Source: Cliona cf. orientalis
Lineage: Eukaryota > Porifera > Demospongiae > Clionaida > Clionaidae
Reading direction: 5' to 3'
DNA: 64,000 nucleotides
NCBI GenBank assembly: GCA_963930775.1
Contig: OZ005702.1
Coordinates: forward strand, 6,324,001-6,388,000
In this document: piece by piece, positions 41,156 to 64,000 of the stretch
How the letters are laid out: each line of letters opens with the position of its first letter
Position numbering within the stretch: the first letter of the stretch is position 1
Translations under genes and position numbers: made by a program
The notes under the pieces: generated by a model
Database searches by the model: none
The model's input: only the letters and a program-made list of their open reading frames with translations
What the model was told of the DNA's origin: nothing

Positions 41156-41483
41156 AAAATAACCTCTAATTTTGACTATAAGGCAAGTGCCAATGAATTT
41201 AAGATTAGATACATTATTATGCCATAATTCTTAGCCTTCATGCAGCCATACATAATCATCTTCTGAATTAGAATGCTTTTATTTAGAGAACATGTAGCTA
41301 ATTCAAATCAATAATTGCAGCCAAGAATGTTAGTAGCTATTTACAAAATGTTCTAGATTTTTTGCAAAACATGTAGCTATTTGAACATGCCATTAGTATT
41401 AGCAGGAATTAATAATAATGTAGGAGACAACAGCAGATTATAAGTCCCCAAACATCATATAATACAACGTCATATTGACTTAC

Positions 41484-43368
41484 TTAAGGTTTAGAGAAGG
41501 TATAAGTCGGGTTTGAACAGTCATATATAGAGCGTGCAGAATGAATAGATGGGATCTGGAGCAGATGGAATTGTAGGATTGGTGATAACAACGTTACTCG
41601 TGCAAGCACTAATCACTCTTCCTAGCTTTGCAGTGTTTTTCTTACATAAGCTGGCTCCGTTAATGTATAGAGTACTACCAGCAATGGCAATAGCACCTCC
41701 TCTCCCGGTTGCACTATTGTAGCTGAAGATGCTGTTTGTAACTTTGACCTGACTGTTTGCCCTTTCTACAAACATCACACCGCCATCACCACCAGCTTGG
41801 TTGCTTGTGAAAATGGAGCTGGTGATTGTATAACTGGTCGGATAAAAATATGTGTATAGAGCACTCCACCATTGCTTCCTGCTATATTATTACTGAATAC
41901 ACATTTCGTAATAATTGTAATATCACTTTTGTCTACCTGTATCACTCCAGCATCTCCTGCTGCCACATTATGGCTGAATGTGTTTTCCAAAACTGAGACA
42001 GAGGCATTTTTAACACAGATAACACCTCCTCCATTGCTCCCAGCAGTTTGTCCTACTGCTTTGTTGTAAGAGAAAGTGTTTCCAATAATCTTTGCAATGC
42101 TGCGATAGGGCTCGTCAACACTCAGCACTCCACAGTAGGCAGATGTATTATTGCCGAAGGTACTATTCAATACTGAAATATTAGCAACTAATGTACCATA
42201 GCGTCCACCAGTATAGATTGCCCCACCCCCTCCAGAGCTGGCTGTATTGTTCGTAAATGTGGTGTTGCTAACTAAGACACTGTTAGTCTCATCTGTGGCA
42301 ATAGCTCCTCCACAGCCACCAACTATATTGTTACTAAAATAACTGCCACACACATTAGCTTTTCCATCATGGACAAAGACAGCTCCACCGGAACCATTGG
42401 TTGATCCTGCACTATGTTGACAATGCGAGTGTAAACTGCTCCTCCGAGACCACCACTGGATACTACTGTGTTGTTAATAAAGGAATTGTTAGTTATGATG
42501 GTTGGCTCTGATGATCTTCCATAAATTGCTCCACCATTAGCACCAGCTACATTCCCATTGAAATGACAATTGATTATTATTGTGCTCCTTGCACCACTGA
42601 TATAGATAGCTCCACCATTAAAACTATATTGGCTATTTCATTATTACTGAAGTTACTATTCAGGATATTTAAATGTACCCTACCTGTGTGATATATTGCC
42701 CCTCCTCCGTCATAGGATGCTGAACGACCAATTACAAAATTATTCTTGAAAACGCTTTGATCAACGGTTAGGTAGTTACCATAGTTATAAATGACCGCAA
42801 TACTTCCCAAGTTGTTATCAGAAAATACGCATTCTTTAACTGTAACCAATGAAGTTGTCACTGTGGTTGTGATATCCAAAACTCCTCCATTATTACAGCA
42901 CGTATTATTCACAAATGAACTTCTCATGAATGCTACATTCACTAGAATGTCAGTTTCACCAGCGACTATTCCAAATTTACAACCATTAAAAGTGATATCA
43001 CTAATATTAACTGTTGATACTCCAGTAAAGGTGAACCAAAAGTAGTTACCTGGTGGAAGTTGTTGCAATTGCCCACACACTACACTCACTGAGGCTGGTT
43101 TTGTAGCTCTCATTGTAAAAGAATCGACTTTTAATGTTGCTAGTGGGGCATGATCCATACTGTGGTTACCAGGGTAGAGCTGCAATGTTATGTTAGCACT
43201 GTGACTGGGATTAGCAACATACTGTTCCAGGGTGAAGCAGGGCTGTCTAATTATTGCACCAGGGCAGGGACTGTCTGCTGTTGGAATGATATAAACCGTG
43301 TGACACCTTGCGTACTGGACTGCTCTGTTCAAGAGTAGAACTAGTATTAGCATTGAAATGCACTTCAT
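41484..43368 (-). pseudogene. PMP-repeat secreted gene, copy A, frameshifted
   Basis: Starts with a signal peptide (MKCISMLILVLLLNRAVQYA) and a conserved domain (PCPGAIIRQPCFTLEQYV), then GGAIY / FxNN repeats of the Chlamydia polymorphic-membrane-protein type, which form beta-helices. Compared with copies B-D the frame breaks at least four times: an indel in an FNGG repeat near 42635; a ~31-bp deletion near 42410; a ~2-bp insertion near 41857; and a 4-bp ATAT expansion near 41527 that makes an early stop. The remaining open pieces are 42577-43368, 41775-42353 and 41521-41778. Frameshifts could in part be assembly errors, but four independent ones favour decay. Confidence 0.8.
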
Positions 43369-44300: not shown

Positions 44301-47144
44301 ATCCTAGCCCTGGCCAGCCAATCCAGTCCTGAGAACACTAAACTGTCTAATTAGAACTGAATAGATGTTGTGTGAACATGCTATTGTACATAGACAGCTA
44401 GGGCTGTTATACTACTTGCACTACTATTTAAGCTGCTTCCATTTTGTGCAATAAAGGCAGAATATAACATTCTTCCAAGTCACACAACTCGTGACAATTC
44501 CACAATCAATTATAGCAGTCAATAAAAAAAGATATGTATACCAATATAATTGGATGCATGTGTCATTAGTATACATAACAAAAAGCAGGAAACAACTATA
44601 ATGTAGGATACGACGGTAGAAGTTTTAAGTCCCCAAATACATTATTATTAATACATTTTGAACTTAAGGTTTCGAGAATGTATACGTCAGGTTTGAACAT
44701 TCATAGAGCGTGCAGTATGAATAAATTGGGTCTGGAGCAGACGAAATTGTAGGATTGGTAATTACAACGTTACTCATGCAAGCGCTAATCACTCTTCCTA
44801 GCTTTGCAGTGTTCTTCTCACATAAGCTGGCTCCGTTAATGTGTAGAGTACTACCAGCAATGGCAATAGCACCTCCTCTCCCAGTTGCACTGTTGTAGCT
44901 GAAGCTGCTTTTTGTAACTTTGACCTTGCTGCTTGCTCTTCCTACAAACATCACACCACCATCACCACCAGCTTGGTTGTTTGTGAAAGAAGAGCTGGAG
45001 ATTGTATAAGTGGTAGGATAAAAGTATGTGTAGAGCACTCCACCATTGCTTCCTGCTGTATTATTATTGAATGTACATTTTGAAATTGTAATATCACTTT
45101 CATCATCTACCAGTAGCACTCCAGCATCTCCTGCTGCCACATTGTGACTAAATTGGTTTTCCACAACAGTTACTGAGACGGAGGCATTTCTAACACAGAT
45201 AACACCTCCTCCATTGTTTCCAGCAGCTTGTCCTACTGCTCTGTTGTAAGTGAACATGTTTTCAGCAATTTTTACATTGCTGCGATAGGGCTCGTCAACA
45301 TTCAGCACTCCACAGTAGGCAGATGTGGTGTTATTGAACGTATTATTTAACAATGAAATGTTAGCAAGTAATTTACCATTATAGCTTTCACTTCTACCAG
45401 TGTAGATTGCCCCACCACTTCCAGAACTTGCTGTATTATTAATTTTGTGAATGTAGTATTGCTAACTAAGATGTTCATAGTCTCATTTATGGTAATAGCT
45501 CCACCACTATCACCAGCTCTATTGTTACTGAAGTAACTGCCACTCACATTAGCTTTTCCATCACAGATATAAATAGCTCCACCATAACCATTGGTTGATC
45601 CTGCACTGTTATCAATAAAAATGCTGTTAGTTATGTTGACACCACAACCAAAAATTGCTCCACCAAGACCACTACTGGATATTACTGTGTTGTTAATGAA
45701 GGAACTGTTAGTTATGTTCATGATGAATGGCTCTCGTAATACAAAAATTGCTCCGCCATTACCACTAGCTACATTTCCATTGAATCGGCAACTGGATATA
45801 GTAATTATTGAACCACTGATATAGATAGCTCCACCGTTGAAATTATTAGTACATGTAATTTCATTGTTACTGAAGTTGCTATTGATAATATTTAAATTTC
45901 CATATTCTGTGATGTATTGCTGTTCCACCAATATAAGGTGCCAATTTATCATAGGATGCAAAATTATTCTTGAAGATATGCTTTGGTCAACTGTTAGGTT
46001 GTTACCCAAGTTAACAATGATTGCAGTACTTTCCAAGATGTAATTAGAAAATATGCACTCTTTAACCGTAACCAATGAAGTTCTCGATTCTCCGGTTTGG
46101 ATTCTCAAAACTCCATGCCATTTATCCTTATAGCAGGTATATAGTATTCACAAGTGAACTTCTCACAAATGCTACATTCATTACACTGGTAGCATATATT
46201 TGAAAATTACAATTATTAAAAGTGATATCACTAATATGAACTGTTTGTATATAGCTACTTCAGTAAAAGTGAACCAAGCGTATTTATCAGGTGGGAGTTG
46301 TCCACACATGACAGTCACTGAGGCTGGTTTTGTAGCTCTCATTGTAAAAGAATTGACAATAAAGTTTTCTGTATAGATAGTGGGACATGATCCATACGGT
46401 GGTTACCAGGCTAGAGCTGTAATATTATGTTAGTACTGTAATTGGAATCAGCAACATACTGTTCCAGAGTGAAGCAGGGCTGTCTAATTATTGCACCAGG
46501 GCAGGGAGTGTCTGGTGTTGGAATGATATAAATCGTGTGACACTTTGCATACAGGACTGCTCTGTTCAAGAGTATATAGAACTACAGTCGAGCCTTCGAA
46601 CAAAGGACACTTTGGGAACGGGCCTCTTGTCCTTTGCTCGGAGGTTGTCCCTATCTCGGAGGTTCATGATTTTTCAACCCATCTTGATTATATTATCCTT
46701 AATAAGTTAGTAAATACACTGAAATGCATAGTAAGTACAGTAGAGATGATAATCAAGCTAGTGGTTGGTAGCTATGTTCTGTTTCAGTATCAACTTAGCA
46801 CAGGCTGATTTTTTGTTTCTGAAGTAGCTACTGGCTAGCTACTCCAAAATCGTTAGGATTCAAGGCTAATATTATTATCGCGCATGCAGCATAATATCGC
46901 GACCGCCTAGATTGCGACGAAGGTGGGCGTGGCATCGCTAACTTAAGGGCGTGGTTTCCGGATCGCGGTCCTTTGCATTGAAAAGTCACGTTGGGAGCTT
47001 GGATCTTGTCCGCTGTCCGGAATCGAGAAGCGTCCGCTTCTCAGAGGTTGCTAATGTACTATAAAGCAATAATAATAATAATAATAATAATAATTATACA
47101 CTAAGTAGCTAGTTATACACTAAGTAGTTACACACTAAGTAGCT

Positions 47145-55029: not shown

Positions 55030-56749
55030 TTAAGGTTTGAAGAAGGTATAAGTTGAGTTTGAACAGTCATAGAGTGTGCAGATTGAATAGATGGGGTCTG
55101 GAGCAGATGGAATTTTAGGATTGGTAATAATTACCTTGCTCTTACAAGCGCTAATCACTCTTCCTAGCTTTGCAGTGTTCTTCTTACATAAGCTGGCTTT
55201 GTTAATGTGTAGAGTACTACCAGCAATGGCAATAGCACCTCCTCTCCCAGTTGCACTGTTGTAGCTGAAGATGCTTTTAATAACTTTGACCTTACTGCTT
55301 GCCCTTCCTACGAACATCACACCACCATCACCACCAGCTTGGTTGTTTGTGAAAGAAGAGCTGGAGATTGTGTAATTGGTTGGATAAAAGTACGTGTATA
55401 GCACTCCACCATTGATTCCTGCTGTATTATTATCGAATGTACATTTCGAAATTGTAATATCACTTTCATAATCTACCAGTAGCACTCCAGCATCTCCTGC
55501 TGCCATATTGTGGCTAAATTGGCTTTCCAAAACTGAGACGGAGGCATTTCTAACACAGATAACACCTCCTCTATTGTTTCCAGCAACTTGTCCTACCGCT
55601 CTGTTGTAAGTGAACGTGTTTCCAACAATCTTTACAGCACTACAATAGCCTAAGGGGTCGTCAACATCTAGCACTCCACAGTAGGCAGATGTGCTATTAC
55701 TGAACGTATTGTTCAATAATGAAATATTAACAAGTAATACACCGACATACCTTTCAGTACCACCAGTGTAGATTGCCCCACCCCCTCCAGAGCTAGCTGT
55801 GTTATTTGTAAATGTGGTGTTGCTAACTAAGACATTGGTAGTGTCATTTATGGTAATAGCTCCACCACTACCACCAGCTCTATTGTTACTGAAGTAACTG
55901 CCACTCACATTAGCGTTTCCCTCATTGATAAAAACAGCTCCACCGTAACCATTGGTTGATCCTGCACTGTTGTTAATAAAAATGCTGTTAGTTATGATTA
56001 TGTTGACAATACTAGCAAAAATTGCTCCTCCAAGACCACTGCTGGATATAACTTTGTTGTTTATGAAGGAACTGTTAGTTATGCTGATCTGATTCTGAAT
56101 CGGAGTTTGCGATGTTAAAATTGCTCCACCAAAATCACTAGCTACATTTCCATTGAAATGACAATTGGATATTGATATTGTTGAGGGGAAGTACACTGAG
56201 TTCGATAGTAGTGTGATATGGATAGCCCTTTCATTGTTATTGAAGTTACTATTGAGTATATTTAAATTTCCTGTATCATAGTGACGTACTGTGTCATTAG
56301 TACCTGATATCAAGATGCTTTGGTCAATTGTTAGATTGCCACGTGTATTGAAAATGCTACAACCATTAAATGTGATATCACTGATAAGAATTGTTGATAC
56401 TCCATAAAAATTGAACCAACTTGAAGATAATTCAGAAGGTGGGAGTTGTCCACCGTGACATGACAGTCACTGAGGCTGATTTTGTAGCTCTCATTGTAAA
56501 AGAATTTATATCTGCTATTGACAGTGGGGCATGATCCATACTGTGGTTACCAGGGCAGAGCTGCAATGTTATGTTAGCACTGTGACTGGGATCAGCAACA
56601 TACTCTTCCAGAGTGAAGCAGGGCTGTCCAATTATTGCACCAGGGCAGGGACTGTCTGGTGTTGGAATGATATAAATCGTGTCACTCCTTGCATACTGTA
56701 CTGCTCTGTTTAAGAGTAGAACTAGTATTAGCATTGAAATGCACTTCAT
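55030..56749 (-). CDS. PMP-repeat secreted protein, copy C, nearly intact
   Basis: The start at 56749 gives a signal peptide (MKCISMLILVLLLNRAVQYA) and the domain PCPGAIIGQPCFTLEEYV. From about 56450 to the stop at 55030 the frame is open for over 450 codons of GGAIY/FxNN repeats (e.g. GGAIFASIVN, GGGAIYTGGTERY, GGVMFVGRASSKVKV). One break separates the parts: at about 56453 there are four extra bases relative to copy B (GTCATGT, then CACG). Either an unseen intron, a sequencing error or a real frameshift explains this. Compared with A, about 75 residues are deleted in the second domain. No membrane anchor follows the repeats, so a secreted beta-helical protein is predicted; its role is unknown. 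Confidence 0.7.
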
Positions 56750-58400
56750 CTTCAGTCTACTGTAAGATTTGCCTACGGCAATTGTAGCTACACATAAGCT
56801 GTATAATAATTTAGTTACCCTTTAGCTTTGAATACTGTTCTTGTTAATCTTGTGATTGCTCATGTGATTCATGAATATTCTACAAAGCTATGTTTTGCTC
56901 ATAATGATTCTAATTAATTTTTATGATAATAACTATGTTTTATGTTTGGTGGTACAATAATACTAATGACCAACACCAAAGATATCGTGAAATGCTCCTC
57001 GAATAAAAGAGCTGCTTTACTCAAGTATAGCCATTGCATGACTTACAGCGAGGAAGATTTGGGGGGATTTATTTGTTGGTGCCAATTCTTCGAAATCCAA
57101 GGCCATAATTCAGATCTATATAATTATGTTGATTCTGTGCTAAAGCACCACAGTGTGCTAAAGTACAGTTGCTCCTACATAACACATGCTGTTTGTTTAA
57201 ATTATTATAATAATTATTTTGGTGCATGCGCGAGGCTTACGGTATAGTCTAGATGTATGTCTGTCTGCTACCAAGCTAACTGCTATATAGCTACCTGCCA
57301 TTAGGCTTCTTATGGCATTTTCAACATAATATGCATTGTGTATACCGACGGATTTTGTTTTGTTCTATATAATTTTGGTGATATTTGCTGACCACCACTG
57401 CCATTTTCGCTTCTTGACAAGCTCTCGATGGGTAAAAGAGACAGTAATAACCTTCATTTCAAGAGACTACTAGTGTGTAAGTCTAGTGATAGTTCTTATA
57501 AATCGACTGATTCGTCATAGAAGGGTTTTTGGTCTTATCATTTTCCTGCGAGCACTAGATCTGCTGATCTGGCATGCTCGGGCATGCACGTGGTACTATT
57601 GCATAAATTTTTGTGATTCCTGCCACTTTGCTACCCAGTCATTTATGCCATGAAGGCTGAAGTTTAGCTACTGCATGATACTATATGCAGACATTAACCA
57701 AGGGTCAGCTATGCCATGCAGACTATGGGGACACATTGCCCTAGAAAGAACACATGCATGGCTCTAGTGTCAAATGTCCTAAGGAGACACCCTACTCTAG
57801 TTATTAAGTACGTCCCTGGGGATATATATACTAGTACCCTATAGGGTACTGTAACAGTGTCCGGGGGAACAACTTTAGGGGGGTCATGTGACACTATGAT
57901 AGCGTGCATTAACGCATTCTTGTGATTACTCTAGGTCTAAGGTATAAGAATATTATTGTGTACAACCCTACTAGCTAATAGTTGCAGTTGCATGCTGGCT
58001 TAGCTTGCAAAATTAGTTGGCTATCAAAGCTAAGGAAACATGCCAAGGGTTCTGCATAGCAGTGATAGTTAGCTAGGAAATTAATCAAATTTTTTCCTAG
58101 AATCTCAATACTACTGTAAGAATAATTCCATAATTTTAGTCATGCAGCTTGATATACATTTGATAATGATGTATAAGTAACTCAATAATTGCAACCAATT
58201 ATTAATGATATATAGTAGCTATAATATTATTATTATGTGTATAATTACAAAATTTAATGTTCTAGATTTTCACAAACCATGTAGCTATTTGAACACACAA
58301 TAAGTATTAGCAGGAATGAATAATAATAATAATAATAATATTATAGGAGACAACAGCAGATTTTAAGTCCCTAAATATCATAATAAAGTGTCATATTGAC
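56750..58400. repeat. Flanks of PMP copies C and D with segmental duplication
   Basis: 56757-56935 is the PMP 5' flank. 57140-57990 matches 28935-29530: shared landmarks are taaagcaccacagt, the aggttac/aggcttac-ggta region, gcattttca(g/a)cataatatgcatt, and cttcttgacaagctctcgatgg. About 58130-58400 is the PMP 3' flank, also seen at 41270-41460. No complete gene seen. Confidence 0.65.
56966..57075 (+). pseudogene. Fragment related to the 605-aa membrane protein
   Basis: Reads DIVKCSSNKRAALLKYSHCMTYSEE and on the other strand nothing. It matches HIVKCTEKSALLKLGYCMTYEE of the protein at 19074-20891, with the same Cys spacing (split here to stay short). No signal peptide, no downstream membrane segments and no splice sites connect it to more of the gene. 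It lies in opposite orientation to the PMP copies, 200 bases upstream of copy C. Confidence 0.7.
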
Positions 58401-58404
58401 GTAT

Positions 58405-58762
58405 CTAAAGTTTAGAGAAGATATAAGTCGAGTTTGAACAGTCATAGAGTGTGCAGAATGAATTGGTAGGATCTGGAGTGGACGAAATTGTAGGATTGGT
58501 AATTACAACATTACTCCTGCAAGCGCTAATCACTCTTCCTAGTTTTGCAGTGTTCTTACATAAGCTGGCTCCGTTAATGTGTAGAGTACTACCAGTAATG
58601 GCAATAGCTCCTCCTCTCCCAGTTGCACTGTTGTAGCTGAAGATACTGTTTGTAACTTTGACCTTGCTGCTTGCCCTTCCAACAAATATCACACCGCCAT
58701 CACCACCAGCTTGGTTATTTGTGAAAGAAGAGCTGGAGATTGTATAATTGGTGGGATCAAAG
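58405..58762 (-). pseudogene. PMP-repeat gene, copy D, 3' end only
   Basis: From the stop at 58405 back to about 58757 it is clearly the same gene as copies A-C (NYTISSSSFTNNQAGGDGG, GGAIAITGSTLHINGASL). One codon is missing in the CKKNTAKL motif (CKNTAKL). At about 58757-58762 homology ends abruptly and the element starting CAGAGG begins. The 5' part, if kept, lies beyond the right edge. Confidence 0.85.
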
Positions 58763-58907
58763 CAGAGGAGGTACGAAATCGTTAATATTCCACGTGACTT
58801 CCGCTTCATAACTGGGCATGCTATGCATTCCACGCGGGCATTTTGACCTTTGACCCCACAGCTACAAGACGGTGGAACAACAGATCTGAGGCTAAACTCG
58901 ATTTACT

Positions 58908-59848
58908 ATGGCTGTTGCAGGTGAACCTGAAAGCGAGCGAATATACAGATTGACCATCCTTCGTCTGGGAAAGGCGTTTACTCACACCTTAAGAGAGTGG
59001 CCTGTATTTTCTGTGGACTTGCGACTGATGGAGTTCAAAGTTTCTTCTGGCACCTATCACGGCTTCATACGGGACGATCCAAGTCTCCTGGTCATGTCGA
59101 GGCCATTTGAATTGCAAATTTCAGATAGCATGGACTGTTGCTTCGTAAAACCCGAGGTATGTACATTTTGTGTGTGTGTTGGGGGGGGGGGGGGGGGGGA
59201 GGATGGAATCAGACCACGTAGTGTTGTAATAGTATGCTGTATGATATATATCTATATTATTGATGTACACAGCTGGAAGAATTCAACTACATAATCAAGA
59301 AAGATGCGATGTCTGTACTGCCAGATGGTGCTCTAGTTGTGTGGAAATGGGATTTTGAAAACGATAGTGACAATGAATATACAGATGAAGGCGAAAATGA
59401 AGAGGATGTAGAAGACGAAAAAATCCAACAAGAAGAAAACTGCAGCGATGCTGAAGATCACCGCAGTCATACAGTGACATTCAAATGTATGGGAACTAGA
59501 AAGGAGGAAGAATATCAAGACACACTACGTCATATCAGCGGGCTTAAGCCAGTCCAACAAGTGGAAGTAAAACTTCTACCAGAGCCAAGCAATCCCTTCG
59601 ATTCAAAGGCTATAGCTTTTGTGGCTGTTGTGAACAACAAGGACCATAGGATTGGTTACGCTGTACGCGAAGTACTAGATGATCTACATCTAGCAATTCG
59701 TGAAAAAAAGATTCTTAAAGTGGAGTTTGCTTGGGTGAAAATGATGGCCGCTTGGCCAAGGTCTGGACTAGGCTTCTACTGTGGAATAAACATCACTAAG
59801 AGAGGAGAGTGGTCTCCAACAATTGTGAAATACCAGAGTACAAGATAA
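58908..59848 (+). CDS. HIRAN-domain protein
   Basis: Two exons, 58908-59156 and 59273-59848, join in phase 0 (donor GAG/GTATGT, acceptor ACACAG) to give 274 residues. Residues 1-110 are unrecognised. About 112-142 are strongly acidic (DEGENEEDVEDEK). About 149-250 form a HIRAN domain: FKCMGTRKEEEYQ, VQQVEVKLLPEPSNPFDSKA (the conserved NPxDxxA core) and HRIGYAVREV. HIRAN domains, as in HLTF/Rad5, bind DNA 3' ends, so a DNA-end-binding role is plausible but inferred. The start has A at -3 and G at +4. The gene ends 68 bases from the convergent gene; an AATAAA near 59876 can serve as its poly(A) signal. It lies just inside the left end of the putative transposon. Confidence 0.85.
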
Positions 59849-59875
59849 ACACTGAACAGGAACAATCAACAACAT

Positions 59876-59881
59876 AATAAA
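59876..59881 (+). terminator. Polyadenylation signal between convergent genes
   Basis: AATAAA lies about 28 bases after the HIRAN gene stop, in the 68-base gap before the end of the convergent gene. Transcripts of the two genes therefore probably overlap at their 3' ends. Confidence 0.5.
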
Positions 59882-59916
59882 TATACAGACAAGTTGAATA
59901 ATTGTGATTTTTGCTG

Positions 59917-62900
59917 TTAAACATACGAGTGTTCAATTTCATGAATCTGTTTCAGTGAACTTGGAGGGGGTGGTACATCAACTGGGATATTGTGAAATTG
60001 CATCCTGACTGAACGTGCACCAGGAACTGCTAGTGACGTACGTCCATGCACCAATTTACCTGGCTGTTCAATGCGACGTGAACGTTGCTGTCGGGGGTTA
60101 TGTTGAGAATGAGTGGCTGAGGGTTCATTAAAACTTGGCCTTGGTCCCTCAAGAAATCGATCATGGGAAGAGGTATAATAATAATAGGGTAGGTTAGGGT
60201 CCATTCGTTTCATATATTCAATACACAGTTTTCTCCATTCAAAGCGAACATGCTTCAGGGTAAAATCCTTACCGAGGTTGTCGCGAAATACGCTGAAAAA
60301 ACATTCCACATCGTCTGTGGTACTGGCTCTTGGGTTATCAGGAGTTCCACCCATTTCAGCTATCTTTCGACGGTGAAACTCACGACCCTCTATGTTAGTA
60401 GAGACTGCAATTACTGTCTCACGTGTGAATCCTCGTATTCCGCCAATGGGGCTATACAAAGTACATAATATTATCATAAAAACAAAGCACACAATATATA
60501 AGAGAATGGTTGTTACCTGTTAACTTCTAGAAGGCTGAAATCATAGTTAACCCGGTGCCAAGGCATTAGTTCATCCAAAATATAATTTAGAAATTTGTAG
60601 TTGTATCGACAGCGTTGTAATTCAGACAAACCCCTCTCATCACATGCTCTTCTCCAACCAAGAACTGCCTCAATGTATTCAGCTTCAATTACATACTGTT
60701 TTTCTTTCATAAATGCCAATAACTGCGATCCAAACAGTCGCTCTACATCTGTCACTGACTGCTTTCTCTGTCCAGTTAGTGCTGGATATGTAAGACCTGA
60801 TGTCGGATCCTCAAGAGCCTCAACATACCTCTCTAGCTGTAAATCATTTGGACCACCTAGTCGTGTACTGGTACCTATTCTCTATAGAATTAGAAATAAA
60901 CATGAAAAGTAATGCACACATACAAGGTCTGAACTGAACTTGATGTAGTGGCATGATGTGATGGTGAGCATGAATTGGAGTTGGTTAGCAATGGATTCCA
61001 TACTTAATCCAATGTAAGGTCATGCAGTCCAAGCTTGGCTATAATTATATGTACATGGTGTATTTATAAGGGTTTATTGAGCCCCATAAGTGGATAATGA
61101 TATCTACACTGGATCATAATTACAATGTGCATATAATAATATTATAGTACACACATAATAGAGTATACATGCACACACACCTTGAAAACATGACCTTCAT
61201 CCTCTCTTTCCAGAAAAGGTTCTTGAGTGATGTGGTGAACTTCAGGCACATACATGTAAGTACGAAACGGCACACCTTTTTCATCCCATTCACGCACCCG
61301 ATACTGGTACTCCATTTGGGCAAGAATAGATCGTAACATATCTGTACGGTCTTCTTTTTTCCCTATGACATAATTAAAGGTAACTATAATCATCAGTATG
61401 GTCATGGCAAACCTACCAGGCTTCCAAGGATGGGGGTTGTATCCAGTTGGGACAGTTCGTTGACGTAACCTGGTTATCACGTCCATGTCTGTTGCACCTT
61501 CACATCTCCACGACAAAATTTCAGAGAGTAGTGATGCAGGTACAATTGGGCTCGGTGATGCAGCCACAATACTTCCATCAAGTTTTCCTAAAGCAAAAAT
61601 AATGGTTTTCTACTTAGTGAATTGTAATTACTCACTTTTTGGTGTTAGCATTGCAAGTAACGCAGCCTCTCCTTTGTTACTATATTTAGCACGAGCATCC
61701 GCCCTTATCTTCAAAATAGACACTGGTCGCTTATATCCACGAGCTCTGAAGCTATTAAACTCTCCATTCGTAACAAGCCCTGAAGTATACATGTATGTAC
61801 ATCACACTTTTTAATAATCATTATCACGATAATAAAAATGATTTACCAGCAATTTTCATTTGTCGCTGATGCATTTCATGAACAATCTGGTCTGTGAGTC
61901 TACGAAGGGTAGCATCTGTCATGCCACGATACGAAACACATTGGATAGGTATTGCATAAGGCTTTTTGTCTCTTTTGTCGGAACTGATCATGAACACAAA
62001 TATGTGCGAGGCAGCTGTTCGTGTGTGTTTAGACAGAGCAGTAATGAATGCTGAGAGGGCACTTCTCACATCAGATACTTTCCTAGGAACATTTGCAGTT
62101 GCCAAGTCAAATGACGTGTCCCATATTTTGTCGAGTAAACTTGAAACTTCAACAGACATTTTTCGTGCTTCCTCATTTAACCGACTGAGATCATCGACAT
62201 TCCACCCTAATCGGTATTGCATCTTATTACTAACTTTTTTAGATCCAAGTGATTCCTCATATTCAGAAGTAGCCTTGGTCAGAGCTGTGTAAGAATAGTA
62301 CATGTCAATATCATTGAGGTTCTTGGTGGAGTAAATAATATAATATCAAGCAGAAACTTGATACGCCTACATAAGAATAATTATCCATTATTTTGTCATT
62401 GCAATAGCAGATGTTGAGCTACGTCTTTTAATGTCATACGGCTACAGTACATTTACAGTATAGAATTATTACCATTTGAAATGGTTTCCAAGTCATTGCA
62501 TATTAGGGTCAGTACTGCTCGCAGGTCATCAATCAGTTCTGGTCGATGGTTTCTGGGAGGCATACCAATCTTTCCCACAAACTCCAGCCGCTGTAAGTAA
62601 GCATCGTAGCTCTTCTGCAATTCTCCATCTGCAACATCAATGTCTCCTGTCCATATTTTCTTGGTAGATTCCCCCAATCCTTCCACTACATCACAACCGT
62701 CCCCTTTAATCCACCAAACAGCATTAGGGTGAACATTATTTGCTTCGTCCAGTGACGAAAACTGGGCGAAACAGTAAGTAATGTTATGATAACAAATCAA
62801 AACCATTCATACTTGAATCTTTGATCCTGTTGTAAATTCCCTATTTGCTATACCCATCTGCAAAGCTCTGCTTGATAGACCGGGAACATTCACTCTAGCC

Positions 62901-64000
62901 TATATAAGCAAATCAGATAATATTATTACAAAGATAAAAATTAATTATATTTAAAAAATACCTTCACTGGATCTCTTGTAGATGATCCATGTCTACAACC
63001 TTGTTCTGTGGAATCAGAGCTCCACATAGGTCCATTGTATAGCTTGGTCCATTTAGTACCAAACAAGCAGTACATACTTTCTAGCCATAATCGATAATCA
63101 CTGGGACAAACCACTGTCTGCTAATAACATTACAGTAATGAAAGAACACAATTAACTATGAGAATGATTACCTTGGAAGACTGATAAAAATTGATGACAT
63201 ACTCGAGTAAACCCATTGGCATTCGATTGGTAGGTATAAGCGAACTCGAGCCATCATCCCTTTGAAGTCCCAGACCTTTAGCCAATCCAAACAAGATGTT
63301 GCTACGACCACTTTTTTTTAGCTGCGACATTGCCTTTAATGATAGCTCCAGGAAACTAGGCGGAACATGTAATCCAGAGTGATGCATTGAAACATGATGT
63401 TGGTACAGACTTGTGATCAATTCCATCTGATCAAGAGGTGACAGCTGATGAAACCAGTCAATGCAGCTAGTTCTACTTATAGGAACATCGCGCATCAACG
63501 TTGCAGACAAGTCATCGACATGTGCACCATCAGGATCTAACGTAACACTATCAGTGGAATCGGGTACCTGTGGAGTGTTCTCCTTGTCCACCAAAAGATC
63601 TTTCTCGGCATCTTTGGGAGTGGGGTAGAGTTGATGTAGATAGCGGACTACTCTAGTACGGCAAGCAGAACCTAAAAAAACATAATACATACATATTACT
63701 ATTCTGGGCTGGGAACATACTTGATAGTTAGTACAAGCACTGCCACTAAAATAAAATCTAACTGTAGCATACATGTGATACACCATCACTCCGTTCCGCA
63801 CCTGTCCTGACTTGTGGATAGCCAGCCCTATCACGCACAAATGTTGCAGAAGACGCCCAAAATTTGCTGTCCTTGGTACTCTCCCACTTCTCTGGATTGT
63901 GGAAGAGCATGAACTCAACGAGAGCCTTGGTTTCTTCAGTTGTCCACGCACTCACTGGAACATATCGACTAGTACATGGTGTAGCATCACTCAAAGGCGC
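59917..64000 (-). CDS. Large Myb/SANT-like protein with hAT-like C-terminal motif, candidate transposase, 5' end outside window
   Basis: Eleven exons, right to left: 63802-64000 (partial), 63172-63671, 62962-63117, 62813-62899, 62473-62761, 61847-62284, 61636-61779, 61417-61587, 61181-61362, 60517-60881 and 59917-60451. All joins are in frame, for about 1,020 codons. The N-terminus is Myb/SANT-like (SAWTTEETKALVEFML, then KDSKFWASSATFV, then CRTRVVRYL across the first intron). The middle is unrecognised. Near the C-terminus TTDDVECFFSVFRDNLG recalls the (V)ExxFS motif holding the catalytic Glu of hAT-like RNase-H-fold transposases. It is followed by WRKLCIEYMKRMDPNLPYYY and a basic, Pro-rich tail. 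DNA binding is likely; transposase activity is inferred. I recall similar repetitive proteins in cnidarians and fish but cannot verify this. An ATG at about 63994 may be the start. Confidence 0.8.

Follow-up and report, generated by a model that had tools for sequence, protein, structure and literature searches.

A convergent two-gene DNA transposon that pairs a HIRAN protein with a distantly P-like putative transposase

The window analysed here is a stretch of 64,000 nucleotides (G000:C14:6324001-6388000) from a genome of 216.8 Mb in 149 contigs. Towards its right edge, a PMP-like gene copy is cut at 58762/58763 by a transposon whose full span is 58763-64372 in window numbering (5,610 bp; C14:6382763-6388372), with the right end lying 372 bp beyond the window edge. 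The element comprises two open convergent genes, one encoding a HIRAN protein of 274 aa and the other, with 11 exons, a transposase-like protein of 1,073 aa; both the 2-exon and the 11-exon structures are predicted models. The large gene runs on the minus strand from 64153 down to its stop at 59917, with ten GT-AG introns, and only its first 153 coding bases (64001-64153) fall outside the window. The stop codons of the two genes are 68 bp apart. The features are as follows:

41347-42415, 44598-45683 and 55031-56049: uninterrupted paralogues showing the empty site (alignment of joined flanks)
58338-58762, unstranded: portion of the cut PMP-like gene copy to the left of the insertion (alignment to 44598-45683 and others)
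58754-58762, unstranded: target-site duplication of 9 bp, GGATCAAAG, left copy; the right copy is at 64373-64381, beyond the window
58763-64000, unstranded: in-window part of the transposon
58763-58778, unstranded: left terminal inverted repeat CAGAGGAGGTACGAAA; its inverse is at 64357-64372 (16/16 bp)
58791-58796, unstranded: subterminal CACGTG of the HIRAN-side end, at position 29
58908-59156, plus strand: HIRAN gene exon 1
59273-59848, plus strand: second exon of the HIRAN gene, which encodes the HIRAN domain; its stop codon is at 59846-59848
59917-60451, minus strand: transposase-like exon 11, with the stop; TTDDVECFFS, E945
60517-60881, minus strand: transposase-like exon 10
61181-61362, minus strand: transposase-like exon 9; EDEGH, the DxxH, D768 to H771
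61417-61587, minus strand: transposase-like exon 8
61636-61779, minus strand: transposase-like exon 7; TNGEF, second catalytic position, here N613
61847-62284, minus strand: transposase-like exon 6; a coiled-coil-like helical region followed by the segment that matches the P-type RNase H family
62473-62761, minus strand: transposase-like exon 5; WWIKGDGCD with D387, the candidate for the first catalytic residue
62813-62899, minus strand: transposase-like exon 4
62962-63120, minus strand: transposase-like exon 3
63172-63671, minus strand: transposase-like exon 2
63802-64000, minus strand: in-window part of transposase-like exon 1 (full exon 63802-64153); Myb/SANT-like SAWTTEE stretch, with weak Pfam support

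An earlier, sequence-only reading of the window had placed a HIRAN gene and a convergent large gene behind a junction that cuts the PMP-like copy, and had predicted that an inverse terminus, a duplication and the remainder of the PMP-like gene would follow to the right. All of these are present, the latter three 5.6 kb rightward. The right terminus, TTTCGTACCTCCTCTG (C14:6388354-6388372), is the inverse of the left and is followed by GGATCAAAG and then by the remaining PMP-like gene. The inverted ends are exact over 16 bp and extend to 19 bp with two mismatches. The duplication is exact on both sides of the element; its presence at both ends had been correctly anticipated, with a length of 8 bp in place of the 9 bp found. 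Flanks joined with a single GGATCAAAG align to the three paralogous stretches in the window at 81-83% identity with no gap at the junction. The PMP-like gene copy is disrupted by the insertion, and its paralogues are intact at that point.

Nine copies of the element, from five families, were read full-length: the window copy, a second member of its family at C1:31977233-31986635, and seven copies from four further families. The C1 copy is 93.8-96.9% identical to the window copy across matched blocks; at 9,403 bp, as against 5,610 bp, it carries additional sequence, and its large gene contains three stops. Across the nine copies, 17 of the 18 ends start with CAGAGG and one with CACAGG, and 9-bp duplications flank every copy (seven exact, one matching at 8/9 and one at 7/9 positions), with no consensus seen among the nine duplicated target sequences. 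In two families, copies at different places are 99.3-99.6% identical, which suggests recent movement.

The two genes also travel together at the scale of the genome. The window HIRAN exon gave 28 matches, corresponding to 25 loci, and three parts of the large gene gave 24, 40 and 25 matches, corresponding to 35 loci. A large gene lies within 8 kb at 21 of the 25 HIRAN loci and is convergent with HIRAN in all 21, while 4 of the HIRAN loci and 14 of the large-gene loci have no such partner. Multicopy pairs of this kind had been named beforehand as a check on the proposal of a two-gene mobile element, which is now strongly supported by the termini, the target duplications, the empty site and the convergent pairs. 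Shorter relatives are present as well. The terminal 14-mer CAGAGGAGGTNCGA has 215 matches in the genome, compared with 9 for a reversed control pattern. Among 100 listed of these 215 termini, we found 30 inward-facing pairs no more than 8 kb apart and none in the wrong orientation; 27 of the 30 span 373-641 bp and three span ~6 kb, with many matching termini sitting in pairs of ~414 bp. One short element of 413 bp is flanked by an exact 9-bp duplication, AGTTCACCC; in another, of 420 bp, the end 9-mers mismatch in register and match at 8/9 positions 3 bp further out.

Substitution patterns indicate coding constraint on both HIRAN and the large gene. Between the window and C1 copies, the large gene shows 38 synonymous changes at 717 sites and 32 nonsynonymous changes at 2,442 sites, leaving out 17 gapped codons and 3 stops, and HIRAN shows 13 at 172 and 12 at 650, respectively. 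The corresponding counts for two copies of another family, from models that include some unaligned stretches, are 23 at 743 and 14 at 2,686 for the large gene (4 gapped codons set aside) and 7 at 188 and 2 at 693 for HIRAN. Per site, nonsynonymous changes are rarer than synonymous ones for both genes in these two of the four near-identical pairs; the other two pairs differ too little to tell (3 and 3 changes; 1 and 4). The window copy is apparently intact.

The large protein carries, in order, the motifs WWIKGDGCD (D387), TNGEF (N613), EDEGH (D768 to H771) and TTDDVECFFS (E945). We take D387, matched by eye, to be the counterpart of the first catalytic aspartate of P transposases. The D, the DxxH and the E are invariant across five large-protein models. 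At the second catalytic position, six of seven lineages (9/11 copies) have Asn and the remaining one has Asp, with Gly-Glu next in every case. The N-terminal part is Myb/SANT-like as labelled by eye, a label that the sequence-only reading shared and that holds up weakly: Myb matches in the five-member alignment reach E values of 0.021 and 0.29, in one member each, and the window protein has no Pfam Myb match.

A sequence link to P-type transposases is supported but weak. All five large proteins match PF21787, the N-terminal part of the P-type RNase H domain, with a best E value of 4e-4; the full window protein matches it at E 0.0035 and 18.1 bits, below the cut-off of 24.6, and has no other Pfam match. 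Profile-to-profile comparison (hhalign) against five P-like proteins encoded in this genome gave a score of 37.5, at low probability, compared with a maximum of 29.5 and a mean of 18.5 for 60 column shuffles, and the 80 aligned columns run up to the second catalytic site. When the large-protein profile was searched against PDB sequences, seven matches came back at E 0.41 or worse, none of them a transposase. For structure prediction with AlphaFold we used a single uninterrupted open frame from the C2 copy (268 aa, including ~23 aa that are probably intronic), together with exon rows taken from other copies. The partial model (mean pLDDT 65) has a first strand, then long helices, then two strands and a helix; a fold search against the PDB gave coiled-coil-type matches, with no RNase H or transposase name among the 50 listed of 341 matches, a result that counts neither for nor against an RNase H fold. 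Searches for relatives in IMG/VR and in a prokaryote genome set yielded 58 and 129 pattern matches, respectively, none confirmed.

Taken by its sequence, the large protein looks like a distant relative of the P-element type, not of the hAT type. With the P superfamily (Drosophila P element, Galileo, 1360 and THAP9) it shares the weak PF21787 match in five of five proteins, a DxxH after the second catalytic position, inverted ends, and a long stretch from the DxxH to the last E, 768 to 945 here and 339 to 531 in Drosophila (PMC8230255). The combination of DxxH with a DDE triad occurs in P, THAP9 and Galileo (PMC8230255, PMC4168063). The window element differs from the superfamily in its 9-bp duplication, compared with 7-8 bp (PMC4168063), in having Asn at the second position in six of seven lineages, in its second gene, and in its large protein, in which THAP was not found. 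THAP was absent from the Pfam matches at E up to 10 of five models, some of which, in other families, may lack the true first exon, and from those of the full window protein. Spacing departs from that of Drosophila P, D387 and N613 lying 226 residues apart and N613 and D768 155, compared with 73 and 36 (PMC8230255). Because of the 9-bp duplication and the lack of THAP, and with profile and triad equivocal, we do not file the element as a P element; it is a DNA transposon that carries two genes, and its transposase is distantly P-like.

As for the second gene, its product is recognizable by sequence as a HIRAN-domain protein: five of five proteins match the Pfam family, with a best E value of 2.5e-7, and the window protein alone reaches E 8.3e-4 and 19.6 bits, below the cut-off of 24.7. 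HLTF HIRAN domains occupy the top three Foldseek ranks at a probability of 0.99 with a modest fold match; the predicted HIRAN fold is supported but weak. The HIRAN domain of human HLTF grips DNA ends, and the sequence-only reading had cast the element's HIRAN as an end-binding partner; the HIRAN domain in that proposal is borne out by these family and fold matches. In addition to these matches, the NP[FY]D motif is common to HLTF and the element's protein. The latter differs in being an independent protein of 274 aa, in having an N-terminal half of its own as well as an acidic linker, in having no helicase part, and at GHLKK, where the GH that contacts DNA in HLTF reads GY.

We consider it likely that the element is a cut-and-paste DNA transposon, apparently intact, whose lineage is a distant relation of P, with the large protein as transposase and HIRAN as an inherited second component. 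With its N-terminal Myb/SANT-like part the large protein would bind the CAGAGGAGGT ends, and it would cut and rejoin DNA by means of an RNase H-type site made up of D387 (WWIKGD), N/D-G-E at 613, DxxH at 768-771 and E945 (DDVECFF), with insertion at a 9-bp stagger. The HIRAN product most likely acts by binding ends or gaps in DNA at the excision, integration or repair stage, a role in transposition that we infer.

HIRAN could instead be dispensable for the transposition of what is still a DNA transposon, either as a passenger or in a regulatory role such as the tempering of silencing or repair. We hold this to be possible, if at well under even confidence. It would fit the faster evolution of HIRAN (proteins of the four other families are 35-36% identical to that of the window, as against 45-50% for the large proteins in hand-cleaned models), the 14 of 35 large-gene loci with no HIRAN match nearby, the at least 97 HIRAN matches in the genome, mostly elsewhere, and the GY reading at the HLTF contact residues. 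However, linkage and convergence at 21 of 25 loci hold across divergent families, and the low nonsynonymous counts in HIRAN itself point to selection on the protein.

It is unlikely that the transposon is hAT-like or MuDR-like rather than P-like, with its motifs being those common to the DxxH cluster. The DxxH is indeed found in hAT, Kolobok, P, MuDR and Dada (PMC10045372, PMC3706591), and target duplications in this cluster, in which hAT and P are both placed, range from 4 to 10 bp (PMC3706591). Yet at E up to 10 the five large proteins have no Pfam match to a hAT or MULE family, in a scan limited by HMMER filters that could miss distant hAT members, while the P-type family matches all five; moreover, hAT duplications are ~8 bp (PMC3706591), compared with 9 bp here. 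We rejected a hAT identity on these two grounds, Pfam and duplication length. The candidate new transposase of the earlier reading is supported as a distant P-type relative, for which hAT was not the best comparison. That the two genes are ordinary host genes that happen to neighbour a repeat has no point in its favour and a negligible probability, given the empty site and the matching termini and target duplications that flank both genes in nine of nine copies.

The second protein of Harbinger is Myb-like, and that of the window element is a HIRAN protein. PIF/Harbinger resembles the window element in combining a transposase with a separate second protein (PMC5543537) and differs in its 3-bp duplication, as against 9 bp (PMC2213677). 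The HIRAN partner is the unusual part of the element, and a transposase-HIRAN pairing would be unusual in itself. Among the papers listed for HIRAN, judged by titles and abstract openings, nothing alike appeared, the matches listed for literature on P-type, Myb or 9-bp transposon families included no matching element, and PMC10027918 has no HIRAN in it. We speculate, doubtfully, that these elements form a distinct P-related superfamily defined by CAGAGGAGG ends, 9-bp duplications, a Myb/SANT-headed D-N-E transposase and HIRAN as an obligatory end-holding second factor; the D-N-E site, in which Asn, or the Glu two residues on, would replace the second Asp, belongs to that same doubtful proposal. 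At a position that is conserved, such an active site would differ from the usual DDE. A DNA-repair domain travelling with a transposase offers a natural case in which a role of HIRAN at transposon ends is directly testable; also of interest are the intact-looking window copy and the many short elements with matching ends in the genome.

Lastly, a CACGTG motif recurs close to the ends. At the transposase-side end of the window copy it starts at position 21 (64347-64352), a position conserved from the large-gene end in eight of the nine copies, the decayed ninth reading CGCGTG; from the HIRAN end, CAC[AG]TG occurs at 29, 30 or 40 in all nine, and each element holds two to four copies of CACGTG. 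Of the two short elements, one lacks CACGTG and the other carries it at position 43, counted from one of its ends. Since the short elements do not share its positions, the motif may equally belong to the two promoters, and CACGTG may be either a binding site for transposition or part of those promoters.

Three loci with HIRAN matches in the Cliona cf. orientalis genome (L005, L007 and L008) contain a repeat of ~680 bp that holds a HIRAN of another type than that of the two-gene element. Since this repeat occurs at three places with 90-95% identity, other mobile elements, too, may act as carriers with which HIRAN moves. At two further loci, L001 and L002, the HIRAN match is set within a 1.7-kb repeat of 92% identity, and L001 also has, as judged by eye, a chromodomain-like stretch in an open frame. 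At locus L004, an open frame judged by eye to be Myb/SANT-like lies ~0.7 kb from the HIRAN match.

The P-type RNase H family (PF21787), the N-terminal RNase H part of P-like transposases, has 118 matches in the same genome, among them 551-aa open frames at several places with nearly equal scores.

The element itself has a CACGTG near each end, at fixed distances, and the genome holds numerous short elements of ~414 bp bounded by CAGAGGAGGTTCGA ends:

window 58791-58796, CACGTG near the left end
64347-64352, outside the window, CACGTG near the right end
C1:3859279-3859691 of the genome, example of a short element with CAGAGGAGGTTCGA ends
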